Shown here: one piece after another, positions 29,422 through 37,911 of the stretch
How the letters are laid out: each line of letters begins with the position of its first letter
Position numbering within the stretch: position 1 is the first letter of the stretch
From: Acidobacteriota bacterium
GTDB lineage: Bacteria; Acidobacteriota; Thermoanaerobaculia; Gp7-AA8
NCBI GenBank assembly: GCA_021325515.1
Contig: JAJPHC010000056.1
Location: forward strand, 1 to 37,911
Direction: 5' to 3'
Length of the DNA stretch: 37,911 nt
Position numbers and translations under genes: made by a program
Notes under the pieces: generated by a model
Seen by the model: only the letters and a program-made list of their open reading frames with translations
What the model was told of the DNA's origin: nothing
Database searches by the model: none

Positions 29422-30546
29422 ATGCGCAGACTCGCAGTCCTGATATCGATCATCGCCCTGGCGCCGGTCGCCCTCGCCAACGAGACCATTCATGTAAAGG
29501 TTCAGGGACGCGAGCGGAGATGCCTGCTCCACGTGCCGGTCGCGCGCGGGCCGATGCCGCTCGTGCTGATGTTCCACGGCGGCGGCGAAACCCCGGAGAA
29601 CACGGCACGGATCAGCGGCTTCAATGCGGTTGCGAATCGCGAGCATTTCATCGTCGCGTATCCCGAGGGAATCGAGCGGAGCTGGAACGACGGCCGCGGC
29701 ACGACGGGAGCGGCAAAGGATGGCGTCGACGATGTCGCGTTCGTTCGCGCACTCATCACAGAAATCCGTCGCACGCACAACATCGACGGCCGCCGCATCT
29801 ACGCGACCGGCGTCTCCAACGGCGGCATCTTCACCAACCGCCTCGGCTGCGAGATGTCGGACACGTTCGCCGCCATCGGCCCGGTGATCGGCAGCATCGC
29901 CAGCGGCGAGGCGCCGCGCTGCCATCCATCCGATTCGCTCGCGGTGATCGGCATGCAGGGCGAAGCCGACCCTTTCATTCCATTCGAAGGCGGCGAAGCG
30001 GGAGGCTCCAGACACATCGGCGCCGGCGGCAGAGTGGAGAGCGCGAGAGCGACACAACGATTGTGGGCGTCGCTCAACGGCTGTGCAGTGCAGCCGCGAG
30101 TGGAGCAGCTCCCGGTCGCGAACAACGATGGCACGTCCGTGACGAGAAAAACCTACGGCGGCTGCCGCGCAGGCACAGAGGTCGTCTGGTACGAGATCGC
30201 CGGCGGAGGCCACCGCTGGCCCGGCCATCCCCTGCGGCTCGAGCGCACCGTCACAAAGATGCTCGGCGCGGCGTCGATGAATATCGACGCGACGGAGACG
30301 ATCTGGGCCTTTTTCAAAGCACACGCAAAGAGGGGTGCGGACGTCTCGTCCGCAAATCTCATCAACAGCGCACCGCTGCCTCGACGGCAGCGGCTCGCGG
30401 ACGAGGCGTCCGCGCTCCACTCTACCCTGCCGTCATCTTCGTCCACGCAAACACATCCAGCGGCATCGCGCGCTCGAGCTTCCAGACGATCGCCATCGGC
30501 CGGTCGCCGCCGTGCTCCACATAGTTCGCCGAACCCAGGAATGTAA
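29422..30546 (+). CDS. Secreted LpqC-like esterase / PHB depolymerase family protein
   Basis: 374 residues from ATG 29422. The signal peptide MRRLAVLISIIALAPVALA is followed by an alpha/beta-hydrolase fold: oxyanion FHGGG (51-55), nucleophile Ser132 in GVSNGG, acid Asp183 (EADPFIPF) and His264 (GGGHRWPG). Relatives hydrolyse polyesters or feruloyl/acetyl esters outside the cell; the exact substrate is unknown. The fold ends near residue 304 (WAFFKAHAKR). The last 70 residues (Arg/Ser/Pro-rich) are encoded by hairpin repeats and by the opposite strand of the helicase gene. TACGAT lies 6 nt before the ATG. Confidence 0.88.
   Translation: MRRLAVLISIIALAPVALANETIHVKVQGRERRCLLHVPVARGPMPLVLMFHGGGETPENTARISGFNAVANREHFIVAYPEGIERSWNDGRGTTGAAKDGVDDVAFVRALITEIRRTHNIDGRRIYATGVSNGGIFTNRLGCEMSDTFAAIGPVIGSIASGEAPRCHPSDSLAVIGMQGEADPFIPFEGGEAGGSRHIGAGGRVESARATQRLWASLNGCAVQPRVEQLPVANNDGTSVTRKTYGGCRAGTEVVWYEIAGGGHRWPGHPLRLERTVTKMLGAASMNIDATETIWAFFKAHAKRGADVSSANLINSAPLPRRQRLADEASALHSTLPSSSSTQTHPAASRARASRRSPSAGRRRAPHSSPNPGM
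30337..30413. repeat. Nested hairpin repeats at the esterase 3' end
   Basis: GCGGACGtctCGTCCGC (30337-30353) and GCGGACGaggCGTCCGC (30397-30413) are each hairpins and are also reverse complements of one another with one mismatch. Between them CCGCTGCC / GGCAGCGG (30373-30393) forms an 8-bp stem. A related element is at 13993-14012. The set lies just before the stop codon of the convergent helicase gene. Confidence 0.85.
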
Positions 30547-33502
30547 ACGGCAGTGTGTGCGCACCTTCCTTGTTGCGCGGCCGCACGAACAGCATCACCT
30601 TCGAGCCTCGCTCCACATGATGGATGTAGCGCTGTCCCGTTGGACTCGCCGCGCGGATCTGCGACTGCGACTCCCAATGAAAGACATCCGGCGCGATCGC
30701 GTAGTCGCGATATCGCGTCGAGGGGGAGTAGTACTTCTCGCTCTTGTCGATCGTGACGAAGAAGTAGTCGGTGCGCGTCGGCTCATGCCAGAGCGGCCCC
30801 TCGCGATGCGCGAACGGTGCCGCGAGCGACGCACGCCCGATCGCGGCCAGCACTTCGTCGCGCGTGTAGCGCGCGTGCAGCGACAGCGGGATCTCCCCGC
30901 CGAGCGGAAACGTTCGATGCGACGCGCGATCCTCGAGCACAACGAGCAGCTCGCGCAACTCGTCGCGAAACGCCGCCGCATTCCAGATCCTGCGCATCGC
31001 GCGATCGAAATCGTTCTCGCGCTCCGACCATACGATCATCAGAAATCCTTCGAGCAACCGCCGCTCCCCCTCGGGCAACTCCTCAGCCCGCGGCGGCGCG
31101 TCCGATGCGAGCACGCGCCTCAGCGCCGCGAAGCGCATCGCGTCGTCGATGTGCAACAGCCGCGGCAGCGCATTCAGCAGCACGCCCTCATCACCGGCCG
31201 CCTTCTCCTCGGCGATTCGCAACTCGGCAAATCCCGCATCGCGCCGCAGCCGCGTCCACGACCATCCTCTGGTGCGATACAGATCCTCCGGCTCGATCAT
31301 CGCGTCGTGCAGGAAGCGCGCGAGCGTCGTCTCGCGCGGCATGCCGCGCAGCTCCGAGACGAGCGCCGAGAAGCGGCTGGAGCCGATCGACTGCCGCAGA
31401 TTCTCGAGCACGATGCGGCTCGACTCGCGATCGAGCTGCATCGCGCAGCCGGCCGGCAGGTAGGGGAATCCCTGCTCGATCTGCCTCTCGATATCGCGCC
31501 GCGTCGCGCCAGTGATCGCCCGATAGCGAAGATCGAAGCGGAAGTTGCGATGCGCGTTGCCGATGAAATCGAGCACCGTGAGGCACTCCTTTCCACGCGC
31601 GCGCCGCAGGCCGCGGCCGAGCTGCTGCAGAAAGACGAGGGCGCTTTCGGTCGGGCGCAGGAACATCACGGTATCCACCTCAGGCACATCGACGCCTTCG
31701 TTGAAGATGTCGACGGCGAACAGGCAGCGGAGCTCCCCGCTCTTCAGTTTCGCCAGCGCGTCGTCGCGCTCTGCGCTGTCGCTGATGCCCAGGATGGCGG
31801 CAGAACGAATGCCGGCACGCGTGAAGCGATCGGCCATGAAACGCGCATGTTCGATCCCGGCACAAAAGCCGAGCGCCCGCATCGAATGAACATCACTAAC
31901 TTTTCGCTGCAACTGCCCGTGGATCTGCGCGACCCGCGCGTCGTTCGCGGTGTAGACGTTCTCCAGCTCGCGCTCGTCGTAGCGGCCCCGGCGCCAGGCC
32001 ACCCGCGAGAGATCGACATTGTCATGAATCCCGAAGTAGTGGAAGGGCGTCAGCAGTCCGCGATCGAGCGCTTCCCACAGTCGCAGTTCGACGGCGATGC
32101 GCCCTCCGAACCAGTCGACGATCGGCTCACCGTCGGTTCGCTCCGGCGTCGCGGTGAGGCCGAGGAGAACCCTGGGCTGGACGTGAGAGAGGAGCCGCTG
32201 ATACGTCGGCGCTGCGGCGTGATGGAACTCGTCGACGATCACGACATCGAAATGCTCCGGCGGCACACGATCGAGCACATCTGCGCGAAGCGACTGGACA
32301 GAGGCGAAGACGTGGCGCCAGCGGTCCGGGCGCTCGCCGTCGGCATAGAGCTCACCAAACGATGCATCGCGAAGGACGGCGCGGAACACATTGCGCGACT
32401 GCTGAAGGATTTCGCGGCGATGCGCGACGAAGAGCAACGAGAGTGGACGCTCTTCAGCGAGGCGGCGATAGTCGAGCGCGGCGACGACGGTCTTGCCCGT
32501 GCCGGTCGCGGCGACGACGAGGTTCCGCCAGCGATTGTGCGTGTAGCGTTCGACTTCGAGTTGATCGAGCATCGCCTGCTGGTAAGGGCGCGGCTCGACC
32601 TCGAGTCCGGTGAAGGTGAGGGCCGGCGTCGCGCTGTCGTTCGCGCGGCGCACGGCGTCGTCGAACCGGTCGGCGTCTCGCGCGGGATCGAACGGCTCGT
32701 AGTCGGGATCGGCCCAGTACGTGTCGAAGGTCGCGACGAACTTCTCGACGATCGCAGGTGCATCGACTTGTGAGAGGCGAACGTTCCATTCGACCCCGTC
32801 GCGCATGGCCGAGGTAGAGAGGTTGGAGGAGCCGATGAAGATCGTGGAGAAGCCGCTCGCGCGGTGCATGAGCCACGCCTTCGCGTGGAGGCGCGTCGTG
32901 TCCGTCTGATACGACACGCGCACGTCAGCGCCGAGTTGGTGCAGCGCCTCGAGAGCGCGCCGCTCGGTCGAGCCGGTGTAGGTGGTGGTGATGACGCGAA
33001 GGCGTCCGCCGCGTTCGACGAACGCGCGCAGTTGTGGCTCGACGAGACGGATGCCGCTCCAGCGGATGAAGGCGACGATGAGGTCGATGCGGTCCGCCGA
33101 TTCGATTTCCTTTTGCAGAACGGCGCCCACGCGCGGTTCGCCGCGCGCGTTGACGAGCAGATCGCTCTGGCTCAGCGGAATGTCGGGCGATGGCGGACGA
33201 AGATCGCGAAGCGGATGGAAGGGATAGATCGCTGCGAGCCGGCGCGGGGGATCGTCGAGCGCATCATCGGGAGCGAGCGCGCCGATCAGTTCATTGCAGA
33301 TGGCGGCCTGCCTCTGCGGCCGCTCCGCTTCGGGAACATCGTGCAGGATCCCGCGCACCACGCGCGCGAGATGCCGGGCGAGAAGGAGATGCGAATCGGC
33401 CGCTTCGAGCGGCTCGACCGCGGCGCGGCGATCATCGCCGAGACGCGCGAGCTCGCGCGAGATCTCGCGCGTGATGAGCAGATCGTAAAGGCCGTCCTTC
33501 AT
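30422..33502 (-). CDS. PLD nuclease - SF2 helicase - DUF3427 protein
   Basis: 1026 residues. About 110-265: phospholipase-D-like domain with H206 and K208 (LHAKAW) and GSSNLSTSAM; one HxK motif is seen, so a dimer may be needed for a full site. About 300-660: superfamily 2 helicase with GTGKT (334-338), DEFHH (424-428), LTATPERTD and QLGRGLRRARGK. About 690-1026: DUF3427 region, ending in a beta-rich segment (QRYIHHVERGSKVMLFVRP). The family is widespread and patchy and lies near restriction or defence genes in many genomes; a defence role here is inference. It faces the esterase gene and overlaps it by 125 nt. Confidence 0.9.
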   Translation of the reverse strand: MKDGLYDLLITREISRELARLGDDRRAAVEPLEAADSHLLLARHLARVVRGILHDVPEAERPQRQAAICNELIGALAPDDALDDPPRRLAAIYPFHPLRDLRPPSPDIPLSQSDLLVNARGEPRVGAVLQKEIESADRIDLIVAFIRWSGIRLVEPQLRAFVERGGRLRVITTTYTGSTERRALEALHQLGADVRVSYQTDTTRLHAKAWLMHRASGFSTIFIGSSNLSTSAMRDGVEWNVRLSQVDAPAIVEKFVATFDTYWADPDYEPFDPARDADRFDDAVRRANDSATPALTFTGLEVEPRPYQQAMLDQLEVERYTHNRWRNLVVAATGTGKTVVAALDYRRLAEERPLSLLFVAHRREILQQSRNVFRAVLRDASFGELYADGERPDRWRHVFASVQSLRADVLDRVPPEHFDVVIVDEFHHAAAPTYQRLLSHVQPRVLLGLTATPERTDGEPIVDWFGGRIAVELRLWEALDRGLLTPFHYFGIHDNVDLSRVAWRRGRYDERELENVYTANDARVAQIHGQLQRKVSDVHSMRALGFCAGIEHARFMADRFTRAGIRSAAILGISDSAERDDALAKLKSGELRCLFAVDIFNEGVDVPEVDTVMFLRPTESALVFLQQLGRGLRRARGKECLTVLDFIGNAHRNFRFDLRYRAITGATRRDIERQIEQGFPYLPAGCAMQLDRESSRIVLENLRQSIGSSRFSALVSELRGMPRETTLARFLHDAMIEPEDLYRTRGWSWTRLRRDAGFAELRIAEEKAAGDEGVLLNALPRLLHIDDAMRFAALRRVLASDAPPRAEELPEGERRLLEGFLMIVWSERENDFDRAMRRIWNAAAFRDELRELLVVLEDRASHRTFPLGGEIPLSLHARYTRDEVLAAIGRASLAAPFAHREGPLWHEPTRTDYFFVTIDKSEKYYSPSTRYRDYAIAPDVFHWESQSQIRAASPTGQRYIHHVERGSKVMLFVRPRNKEGAHTLPFTFLGSANYVEHGGDRPMAIVWKLERAMPLDVFAWTKMTAG

Positions 33503-34486: not shown

Positions 34487-35698
34487 ATGCGCTGCGCCTT
34501 CTGCTGCGCACGAAGGAGATGCTCCAACTCGGCCATGCGCTGCTTCTGGGCCAATGGCGTGACTCGCCGGATCGTGCAGTCCGCGATTTCGCCTGCCATT
34601 GTGCCGTCGAGGTGCGATGAACTGCGCGAAATCTCTGATCTCACACGGTCGCGTTTTCTCCGCATCCGTGCCTCGCACCGTCCCCACTACACGCCCGAAG
34701 AGCGGTTCAGAATCGTCGTCTTCATACGGACGTACGGTTACTCTCTCGGAGACGCAGCTTCGCTTTTCCTCGTCGATCCCAACACGATCAGCCGCTGGAT
34801 GGCCGAAGCCACCCGCGATCCCGACGCGAATACGGTCGGCTCGTTGCTGAAGGCTACCCCACCCGTTCGCACGAAGTCCGACGTCACACGTGAGCTCGTT
34901 GCTCTGCTCGATCGAATGAAAGTTGGGGGCAGTCGCAGGATCGCGCAAATGCTTGTCCGCGCAGGTACCCAGATCAGCCACGAAGCGGTGCGGCGTCTGC
35001 GGAGGAAGCGATCCCCTCTTCCGGCCAACCCTACTGACCAAGCTGACAAGCGGACCGAGAGAAAGCCGTTGTGTGCGCGGGAGTCCAATCACGTCTGGAT
35101 GACAGACATCACCACGATCCCGAGTTACCTGCGGCTCTGGTATTTCAAACTCGTCGTGATCCTCGATGTCTATTCACGCTTCCCGCTCGCCTATCGCGTC
35201 TTCAGCAAAGAACCGACGAGCAGTGAGATCGCCGAACTGGTCGATGAGGCCGCGGCGCAGCACGGAAAGCCGAAGCATTTCGTCACGGATCGAGGGTCGC
35301 AATTCACGGCCGAAGAGTTCACCGGAAAACTCGCAGCCATGGGAGTCGCGCAGCGCTTTGGGGCAGTGGGGCGGACATGGTCCATTGCGATCATCGAACG
35401 TTTCTGGCGGACCATGAAAGAAATGCTCGACGTCAAGTTCTGGCCGCCCTTATCGAGAGGGCATCTCGAAGAACAGGTAGGTCTGGGTCTTTTCTACTAC
35501 GCGACGCTACGACCGCATCAGGGCCTCGGCGGCGCGACACCAGCCGAGATCTACTTCGGCGTCAGCGACCCGAACACGCCGCTACAAACACGCGAATCGT
35601 CAGCGCATGGTCCGCCCGACGATGATCCGCTATGGCGAATTGCATATGTCGCCAACGACCATCGCTTCCCATTCCTGACCGCCAAACTCGCCGCCTGA
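34487..35698 (+). CDS. DDE-type transposase / integrase-core protein
   Basis: 403 residues at most; GTG 34574 or 34601 would be more likely starts (365 residues from 34601), because the first 40 residues are Cys/Arg-rich and atypical. A helix-turn-helix (YTPEERFRIVVFIRTYGYSL; NTISRWMAEA) precedes the rve core. The catalytic triad is D207 (WMTDITTIP), D268 (VTDRGSQF) and E304 (IIERFWRTMKE), with the classic 35-residue D-to-E spacing. It would cut and join DNA ends of its element. No terminal inverted repeats or target duplication could be found on either side, so element borders are unknown. Confidence 0.85.
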   Translation: MRCAFCCARRRCSNSAMRCFWANGVTRRIVQSAISPAIVPSRCDELREISDLTRSRFLRIRASHRPHYTPEERFRIVVFIRTYGYSLGDAASLFLVDPNTISRWMAEATRDPDANTVGSLLKATPPVRTKSDVTRELVALLDRMKVGGSRRIAQMLVRAGTQISHEAVRRLRRKRSPLPANPTDQADKRTERKPLCARESNHVWMTDITTIPSYLRLWYFKLVVILDVYSRFPLAYRVFSKEPTSSEIAELVDEAAAQHGKPKHFVTDRGSQFTAEEFTGKLAAMGVAQRFGAVGRTWSIAIIERFWRTMKEMLDVKFWPPLSRGHLEEQVGLGLFYYATLRPHQGLGGATPAEIYFGVSDPNTPLQTRESSAHGPPDDDPLWRIAYVANDHRFPFLTAKLAA

Positions 35699-36145
35699 TC
35701 ATTCGGCGATCGAAGACGACGTTAAGTCGCGGACCGCACGCGAGTCGCTGGAGGTGTACCCAGACAGTTCCCTGCTGGCCCTCTCTTAGAGTGAACTCTC
35801 TCACTCGATCACTCGACCAACACTAAACCGCAGCAAAGACTCGCCAGAATCCGTGAGTTCTGACTACCCGCAACTCCCAAGTTGGCACTACATCATCTGC
35901 TGACGTTGTCTCTAAAACTCTTTCCGCGTGGTGAAGCCGATGAATGGTTGCTCGTTTCAACAAGACGGCTCATTCAGAAAACTCGACGTGTTCGAATGAT
36001 ACCGAAGCGCGGATCATCGAACGCCAGGGCTTTCTGAGCCGTCGACTCGATCGTCACGATCAGGCTTCAACGGCGCTTCAGCAATAACTGAGCAGATGCT
36101 CACGAAGCTTCAAATCAGACGACTGTTCCTGCTTCGGCTTCCGCC
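35699..36145. other. 447-nt stretch without an intact gene
   Basis: Visibly less GC-rich than the rest of the window. No intact gene is seen. On the minus strand 35974-36063 reads as a protein-like fragment (STAQKALAFDDPRFGII, ending in a stop) with a stop codon shortly upstream, and just before it another frame reads SSDLKLREHLLSYC. They may be remains of a gene that followed the toxin-immunity pair. A small GAGTGA / TCACTC inverted repeat lies near 35790-35810. Confidence 0.3.
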
Positions 36146-36868
36146 TCAAAAGCATAGCCTCCACCACTCTTGCTCAGGCACATCCAACAACATGCCGTCG
36201 CGCTGGGCCAACAAGACGATCAACTGACCCGGCAAGTACGCCAAGCGATCCTCTGAATACTTGAAATCACCACGTTTCACTTCGTTAGCAACCATTTCCG
36301 TAAGAGCGCCGAACGAACTCTCGAGCGCGCTCTTGTCCTTGTTCATCGCTGCTGTCGCTATCTCAATCCATAGTGCAAACTGCCTTAATGCGCCGTCATC
36401 AGCGATCTGTTTCACGTCCTTCACTACTACAGAGTCTCGGCACATCCACCCAAGGATCGCCCGTGACCCCGTATTTACGATGTCCTCTCGCCGATTTCCG
36501 CCCGATACCCTTAATGCGTTGACCGCTGCGGCTTCCGTGGCAGCCCAAGAACCAGCAACAGCGCCCGCGGCCATAACCTGTACATCGTGATAGCCAAGAT
36601 ACAATCGATCGCTTCCAGCGAATCGCTCCCCCGCAATGCTCACAGCGCGTACAAAAGCTTCCCGCGCCTTAGACGCTTGCTCGAGAACGCATTGATTGAT
36701 CCCGAGTACAACCAAAGTTTGTGCAAGCTCGTACTGCAACTTCTGAACTTCCGCCCGCTTCCACGGCCATCGCTGAGCACTGCTCAGCCTCTTCTCATAG
36801 TCGCGCACCGACTGCGACAACATTTCGACATGTGCACGCGTCTTTTCTTGGCCTAACGAAGCAGCCAT
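36146..36868 (-). CDS. Putative immunity protein for the Rhs toxin
   Basis: 240 residues, not firmly recognised. It is mostly helical (YEKRLSSAQRWPWKRAEVQKL; LAQTLVVLGINQCVLEQASKA) with Trp residues and a C-terminus DRLAYLPGQLIVLLAQRDGM that recalls large helical immunity proteins such as Imm49; that resemblance is only suggestive. No signal peptide is seen, so it is probably cytoplasmic, where a nuclease toxin would act. Its start overlaps the Rhs gene by 16 nt, the usual layout for a toxin and its cognate immunity gene. Confidence 0.6.
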   Translation of the reverse strand: MAASLGQEKTRAHVEMLSQSVRDYEKRLSSAQRWPWKRAEVQKLQYELAQTLVVLGINQCVLEQASKAREAFVRAVSIAGERFAGSDRLYLGYHDVQVMAAGAVAGSWAATEAAAVNALRVSGGNRREDIVNTGSRAILGWMCRDSVVVKDVKQIADDGALRQFALWIEIATAAMNKDKSALESSFGALTEMVANEVKRGDFKYSEDRLAYLPGQLIVLLAQRDGMLLDVPEQEWWRLCF

Positions 36869-37911
36869 GTCGTAACTTCCTCAAGTATCGTTCGACCAGC
36901 TGTTGCAGGATCACTGATTAGCTTCGAAAGCTTCACCGATCCCTTCACCCTATCGTAGGTGGCTTTATAAGACTCGAGCTTCCCTGCTCGCCTCACTTGT
37001 TCATATTTCTGTGCTGCCGTGATGGTCGCCTGATTTGATACCTGAGGATTCGCAGCTCTTGCCAACCGCGTTCGGTTAAATTCCTCAGAACCCTGCTGTA
37101 TCCCAAGGCGATCAGTGCGCAAATTAGGTCGATTTACGCTTTTCACCTCAACGGATGCAGTTCTATCCGCCGAAATCACATTCTTCCGCTCGAACACCTT
37201 ATCTACGCCCTGATTGCCGTTGCCATTACCTGCGTTCCCCCGAATCTTCACGTCCTCTCCAACTTCCCACCCGCGGCGAACCATCGCGCGTTCGGTCAGC
37301 AACTCCCCTGTCTCTTCCGCGGTGCGCGCGACTTTCAGATCGGCTGATATTCTTGCGAGCGTCTTCACCTGACGGACTGTCTGTGCTGTTTTATAAACAG
37401 TCGCAACGGTACCGACTGCGGTAAGAATGGTTTCGCCTGCATCGCCCGCGCCCGCCGACAGAATCATCCCGGTCGCGTATCCGTCGCGAAACCCACCTTG
37501 TTCCATGTACGTTTCGCCTGTCTTTGTACCGATATCGAAAACGGAGCTAAACCCAGAACCGATGTCTGACAGCGTGTTTCCGGCGGCATCGACAATGACG
37601 GAATCGCTGCTGGAATAGTAGGTCTTAGCGGCTGCAGCCTGGCGCTGAAACCACCGATGGACGGCTGCGGGGTCGTATTCACCTGTCGGATCGCGCCCAT
37701 TGACAGGATCACCGCCGGCAAACGCATAAAGATTCGCGCTATCGACATACCCAAGAGGGTCGGGACTAGGGAAGGTCCCCGTCTCCGGTGAGTACCAGCG
37801 ATTGCGGACGTAATCATGGCCCCACCGCGTTTTCGGCCTTAAATCGCTGAGCTGATTGACGATGGCCCGATTGAGCGACTCGCGAAGCCCAGACGCGAGT
37901 TTTTCACTAAC
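36853..37911 (-). CDS. Rhs/YD-repeat protein, C-terminal part with PD-(D/E)xK-like nuclease tip
   Basis: A 352-residue fragment open to the window edge, so the start is outside. The end of the Rhs core is visible: RWYSPETGTFPSPDPLGYVD, NLYAFAGGDPVNGRDPTG. After it comes a variable tip. In the tip, GNQGVDKVFERKN and VEVKSVNRP supply Asp (codon near 37201) and Glu-x-Lys (Glu 37147-37149, Lys 37141-37143), followed by QQGSEEFNRTRL. This is the pattern of a restriction-endonuclease fold. Such proteins deliver the tip into rival cells as a DNase or RNase, often through type VI secretion; no secretion genes are in the window. Confidence 0.85.
   Translation of the reverse strand, partial: VSEKLASGLRESLNRAIVNQLSDLRPKTRWGHDYVRNRWYSPETGTFPSPDPLGYVDSANLYAFAGGDPVNGRDPTGEYDPAAVHRWFQRQAAAAKTYYSSSDSVIVDAAGNTLSDIGSGFSSVFDIGTKTGETYMEQGGFRDGYATGMILSAGAGDAGETILTAVGTVATVYKTAQTVRQVKTLARISADLKVARTAEETGELLTERAMVRRGWEVGEDVKIRGNAGNGNGNQGVDKVFERKNVISADRTASVEVKSVNRPNLRTDRLGIQQGSEEFNRTRLARAANPQVSNQATITAAQKYEQVRRAGKLESYKATYDRVKGSVKLSKLISDPATAGRTILEEVTTWLLR

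Follow-up and report, generated by a model that had tools for sequence, protein, structure and literature searches.

Two overlapping minus-strand genes at the end of the analysed window (37,911 bp, the whole of contig C21 of genome G000) probably constitute an orphan Rhs tip–immunity cassette rather than the 3′ end of a complete effector gene, the tip being most likely a PD-(D/E)xK nuclease. The first is a 352-residue open frame (36853–37911) comprising a pre-core piece, an Rhs core segment, a linker and a toxin tip; the contig stops inside this frame, so the 5′ side of the gene has been lost to the assembly. The second (36146–36868) encodes a predicted cognate immunity protein of 240 residues. 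Spare toxin–antidote pairs like this, which bacteria can recombine onto a large Rhs protein to switch the weapon used against rivals, have been described before, and the find leaves the understanding of the Rhs system unchanged; the two protein sequences themselves match no known family. The cassette is one more example of reserve weapons stored until they are loaded onto an Rhs carrier, here in a lineage whose carriers are very large, and its toxin and immunity protein, both lacking recognised relatives, offer themselves as test subjects.

The Rhs part of the first frame is short. NCBIfam TIGR03696 (Rhs-associated core) matches frame residues 31–77 at model positions 29–75 (E = 6.6e-13), and the core terminates at GGDPVNGRDPTG, a DPxG-type end, at the tip junction where a sequence-only reading of this DNA had placed it. 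Profile and segment searches delimit a conserved 42-residue core segment (RNRWYSPETGTF...GGDPVNGRDPTG; 37681–37806, minus strand), a joining segment common to carriers and cassettes. The 275 residues that follow divide into a linker and pre-toxin region from the core to the predicted nuclease domain (37348–37680, no family match) and the predicted PD-(D/E)xK-like toxin domain (36856–37347), assigned by motif comparison (PMC3482391) and a weak model; searches of Pfam, NCBIfam, PHROGs, PADLOC and PDB sequences returned nothing significant for them. On the other side of the segment, the visible 105 bp (37807–37911), where the contig ends, contain no in-frame ATG, GTG, TTG or CTG. The first in-frame ATG lies at 37506, within the tip, and a start there would omit the core.

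These 105 bp also contain no in-frame stop, and a frame still open where the contig breaks off, 105 bp ahead of the core, could instead close a full-length Rhs effector gene that lost its 5′ part at the contig end, in which case the pair would be an active main rhs/rhsI unit. Such carriers do exist in this genome: its assembly holds four Rhs cores (window, C22, C13 and C4), and the core on C22 sits at the very end of that contig, as a matching segment within an open carrier frame that is 5,431 aa or more in length. We nevertheless consider a complete effector here improbable. The window matches C22 from position 37812, 6 nt ahead of RNRWY, up to the end of C22 with 84% identity over 107 bp, and no homology was found upstream of 37812; at 84% identity these are two different copies and not one broken gene. 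In three carriers, on C22, on C44 of genome G013 (5,878 aa) and in genome G018 (4,171 aa), the residues preceding the segment are alike (LPFTDLATSLIYA, LPFAEPATRLIYA and HPWQEPLTELNYL, respectively), with a P[FW]xxxxTxLxYxR motif ahead of RNRWY or RARWY. The window has LRPKTRWGHDYV in this place, unrelated to all three and lacking the motif, and carrier homology within its pre-core 105 bp is limited to the last 6 nt. The motif is likewise absent from cassettes of the relatives G013 and G004, whose pre-segment residues read GHPV, CHRL, GHLV, GHPL and CHLI. The other two cores of the assembly, on C13 and C4, belong to separate loci, each with its own tip. The description of this gene as an Rhs effector in the sequence-only reading is therefore probably wrong, since its features fit an orphan cassette.

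The giant Rhs-type carrier (L032 1692–17984, equivalent to C22:39691–55983) runs with its frame into the contig end, and its N-terminal part contains repeated stretches that look Ig-like by eye. Contigs C22 and C21 both end in or near the core segment in a compatible sense, which makes it plausible that they adjoin in the genome. Two further Rhs proteins of the same genome (L030 2–3679 and L031 5371–9000) end in tips that look, on visual inspection, like a metallopeptidase (HELVH) and a JAB-like domain (HTHP).

Searching 297 genomes of the phylum for the 42-residue segment located it in eight of them, one being the own genome, and revealed equivalent cassettes in relatives. Contig C61 of G013, from the same family, carries five of them in two groups (L054 5173–8780 and L055 7127–9611), whose cores are identical at 85–95 of 99 nt, whose tips are mutually unrelated and most of which are followed by a small gene. 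In four of the five, an in-frame stop lies 30–57 nt upstream of the segment with no start codon between, making the whole core–tip reading untranslatable as it stands. Pfam recognises toxins in two of the G013 tips (Ntox50, 85 bits; Tox-URI2, 22.5 bits against a cut-off of 20), and in G004 an AHH nuclease tip (34 bits) is followed directly by Imm11 (27.7 bits, cut-off 22.1). The contig bearing this AHH/Imm11 cassette (L057 6744–8277, C5 of G004) ends shortly upstream of the core, as does the window. Cassettes that share the core segment and differ in their tips support the module exchange that had been proposed from composition, and the toxin and immunity roles assigned at the same time are borne out by relatives in which such cassettes end in recognised toxins, one with a recognised immunity protein behind it. 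Because these equivalent cassettes carry recognised toxins and Imm11, the corresponding roles of the window tip as toxin and of its partner as immunity protein, assigned by cassette position, are well supported.

The partner gene (minus strand) occupies the position of Imm11 behind the AHH tip of L057. It overlaps the tip frame by 16 nt (36853–36868), as had been noted, and a Shine–Dalgarno-like GAGGAAG (36876–36882, minus strand) stands 7 nt ahead of its ATG, within the end of the tip frame. The protein is predicted to be all alpha-helical, at low confidence and from a single-sequence model. It fits no family, in keeping with the earlier impression: neither Pfam nor NCBIfam gives a match up to E 10, Imm49 and Imm-PA2201 included. 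Its listed matches in the fold search were all generic helical repeats, TPR-like or designed, that fall within the tool's named background; PA2201 (2FEF) is absent among the matches listed, which excludes nothing. An all-helical partner is compatible with Imm49 or PA2201, with no evidence of membership of either.

Turning to the tip, its candidate catalytic residues (numbered in the 352-residue frame) are E203 and E207 in GELLTE (codons at 37291–37305), D237 in GVD (37201–37203), E255-V-K257 (37141–37149) and QQ272–273 (37093–37098), all on the minus strand; the D...E-x-K...QQ spacing described before is thus present. Zhang et al. (2012, PMC3482391) list the motifs of comparable toxins as E, D, ExK and Q for Tox-REase-1, the same with an additional Y for Tox-REase-6, and GxxxE, IxD, ExK and Q for Tox-REase-7. 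The tip resembles all three in showing E, D, ExK and Q in this order after an Rhs core. Unlike them, it matches no Pfam, NCBIfam or PHROGs profile significantly, and the comparison is one of motif order. A loose pattern of this order and spacing recurs in 116 of 20,000 shuffles of the tip (~0.6%) and in 1 of 414 examined ORF segments, namely the tip itself, figures that are no more than indicative since the pattern was written after the tip had been seen. The single-sequence model of the tip is too poor to assign a fold (pLDDT 52, pTM 0.25); it places the D at a strand start, the ExK in the next strand and the QQ ahead of a helix, the placement expected of a PD-(D/E)xK core. Motif pattern and model together make a PD-(D/E)xK nuclease a reasonably likely identity for the tip.

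Profile searches of the tip against Tox-REase families, a check proposed with the nuclease assignment, gave no match at E values up to 10 in Pfam, NCBIfam or PHROGs, and the tip is therefore not filed under any listed Tox-REase family. A match to a non-nuclease fold, named beforehand as a result that would speak against the assignment, did not occur; the fold search has no meaningful match at all, its best hit reaching Z 3.3 over 42 residues of the tip's C-terminal part. Of the nuclease claim, then, the motif order stands, and confirmation by a profile, sequence or fold search did not follow. With no family, sequence or fold match to anchor the tip, and with a spacing pattern composed after the sequence was seen, the gene might be an orphan cassette whose tip has some other toxin fold and shows E, D, ExK and Q by chance. 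We regard this as the less likely case, though one to be taken seriously: the residue order agrees with that of Tox-REase-1, -6 and -7 (PMC3482391), and the weak model sets D and ExK in successive strands and Q before a helix, like a PD-(D/E)xK core. The partner bears on the same comparison. Tox-REase-1 is accompanied by Imm-PA2201 and Imm49, which are all-alpha, and Tox-REase-6 by Imm49 (PMC3482391); as in these, a predicted all-alpha immunity partner lies directly behind an E/D/ExK/Q toxin. In contrast to Imm49 and Imm-PA2201, the window partner has no Pfam match even at E 10, and its fold matches are to generic helical repeats.

For neither protein did searches of 19 genomes from the order, 149 from the class and 396 from the phylum bring up a credible relative. 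Searches by tblastn, run to E 10 on plasmids and to E 1 on phages, yielded nothing, nor did pattern scans of viral and genome contig collections, which detect close relatives only. The other result named beforehand as speaking against the assignment, homologues of the partner away from Rhs tips of this type, did not turn up either, the partner having no homologue in these collections. Pfam hits to Ail_Lom, MCM_lid and Tape_meas_lam_C (E 0.03–0.7) are far below cut-off and were rejected. Weak genome matches to the tip or partner (L004–L008 and L070, E 4.6e-4 to 0.01) are attributed to chance: only one of them is free of stops, and those inspected closely fall within unrelated genes or on the strand opposite to them, such as SMC-like, TonB-receptor-like and TolC-like frames.

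The cassette is less GC-rich than its surroundings, as observed at the outset, with 53.1% GC in the tip, 54.5% in the partner and 57.6% in the core piece versus 63.3% in the full window; GC at third codon positions is 0.53–0.59 at the cassette and 0.81 in the adjacent helicase gene. An insertion-sequence transposase with an rve integrase core (34487–35698, plus strand) adjoins it. The lower GC, the neighbouring transposase and the lack of found relatives would also suit a degraded remnant that no longer serves a purpose, its tip and gene displaced and left beside an insertion sequence. This is very unlikely, as both reading frames run uninterrupted for 352 and 240 codons, the overlap and ribosome-binding site are preserved and the proposed catalytic residues are all present. 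We saw no clear terminal inverted repeats at the transposase, no second copy in the genome of the intergenic region (35699–36145) and, in a limited scan, no promoter-like sites on either strand of 35600–37911. The helicase (30422–33502, minus strand) has PLD-like, ResIII and DUF3427 domains and is a possible defence gene.

Returning to the orphan cassette as the preferred reading, we propose the following use. Of the Rhs core, the first gene would retain no more than the final ~42 residues, followed by the toxin tip, and its apparent lack of a start codon suggests that the tip is normally not translated. The second gene, having its own ribosome-binding site, could be expressed independently as an immunity protein. 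Through homologous recombination between the conserved core segment and the similar segment of the carrier, the tip and immunity gene would be loaded onto the carrier, which would then deliver the tip into neighbouring cells. The predicted tip nuclease may be blocked through direct binding by the helical partner. The cassette may be the end unit of an array situated downstream of the giant Rhs carrier gene, within a gap of the assembly.

The silent tip, the expressed immunity gene and the loading by recombination have counterparts in published systems. Arrays of orphan cdiA-CT/cdiI and rhs-CT/rhsI modules were described by Poole et al. (2011, PMC3150448); their tips lack initiation signals, and expression was shown for an orphan immunity gene. 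Koskiniemi et al. (2014, PMC3967940) present evidence from Salmonella for the recombination of an orphan rhs tip onto the main rhs gene through 522 bp at 95% identity. Like these orphan modules, the window pair has a detached tip, a short joining segment and, in the 105 bp that can be read, no start signal, its immunity gene has a start of its own, an insertion-sequence element lies nearby and, as in the arrays, several units share one contig in the relative G013. The core shared with C22 is much shorter and less identical than that of Salmonella, so loading from the window copy may be rare. In contrast to the descriptions drawn on from PMC3150448 and PMC3967940, the carrier here exceeds 5,400 aa and has an RNRWY...DPxG joining segment.

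A more far-reaching interpretation holds that the pair represents two unlisted families, a PD-(D/E)xK toxin and a helical immunity protein, within a multi-cassette exchange system for giant carriers whose units are maybe moved by site-specific and not solely by homologous recombination; we give it little credence. What might point to site-specific movement is found in G013, where several of the C61 cassettes have in common the non-coding sequence CGGCCGGTCACC just ahead of the core segment, and where two tyrosine-recombinase-like frames (L054 9564–11545, identified by eye) adjoin one cassette group. Cassettes may also be more numerous than the assemblies display. In G039 and G023, from a distant family, several short contigs (L061–L066) start a few hundred bases before the core and enter different tips, a pattern suggesting that these assemblies break at repeated cores and that further cassettes stay hidden as a result.
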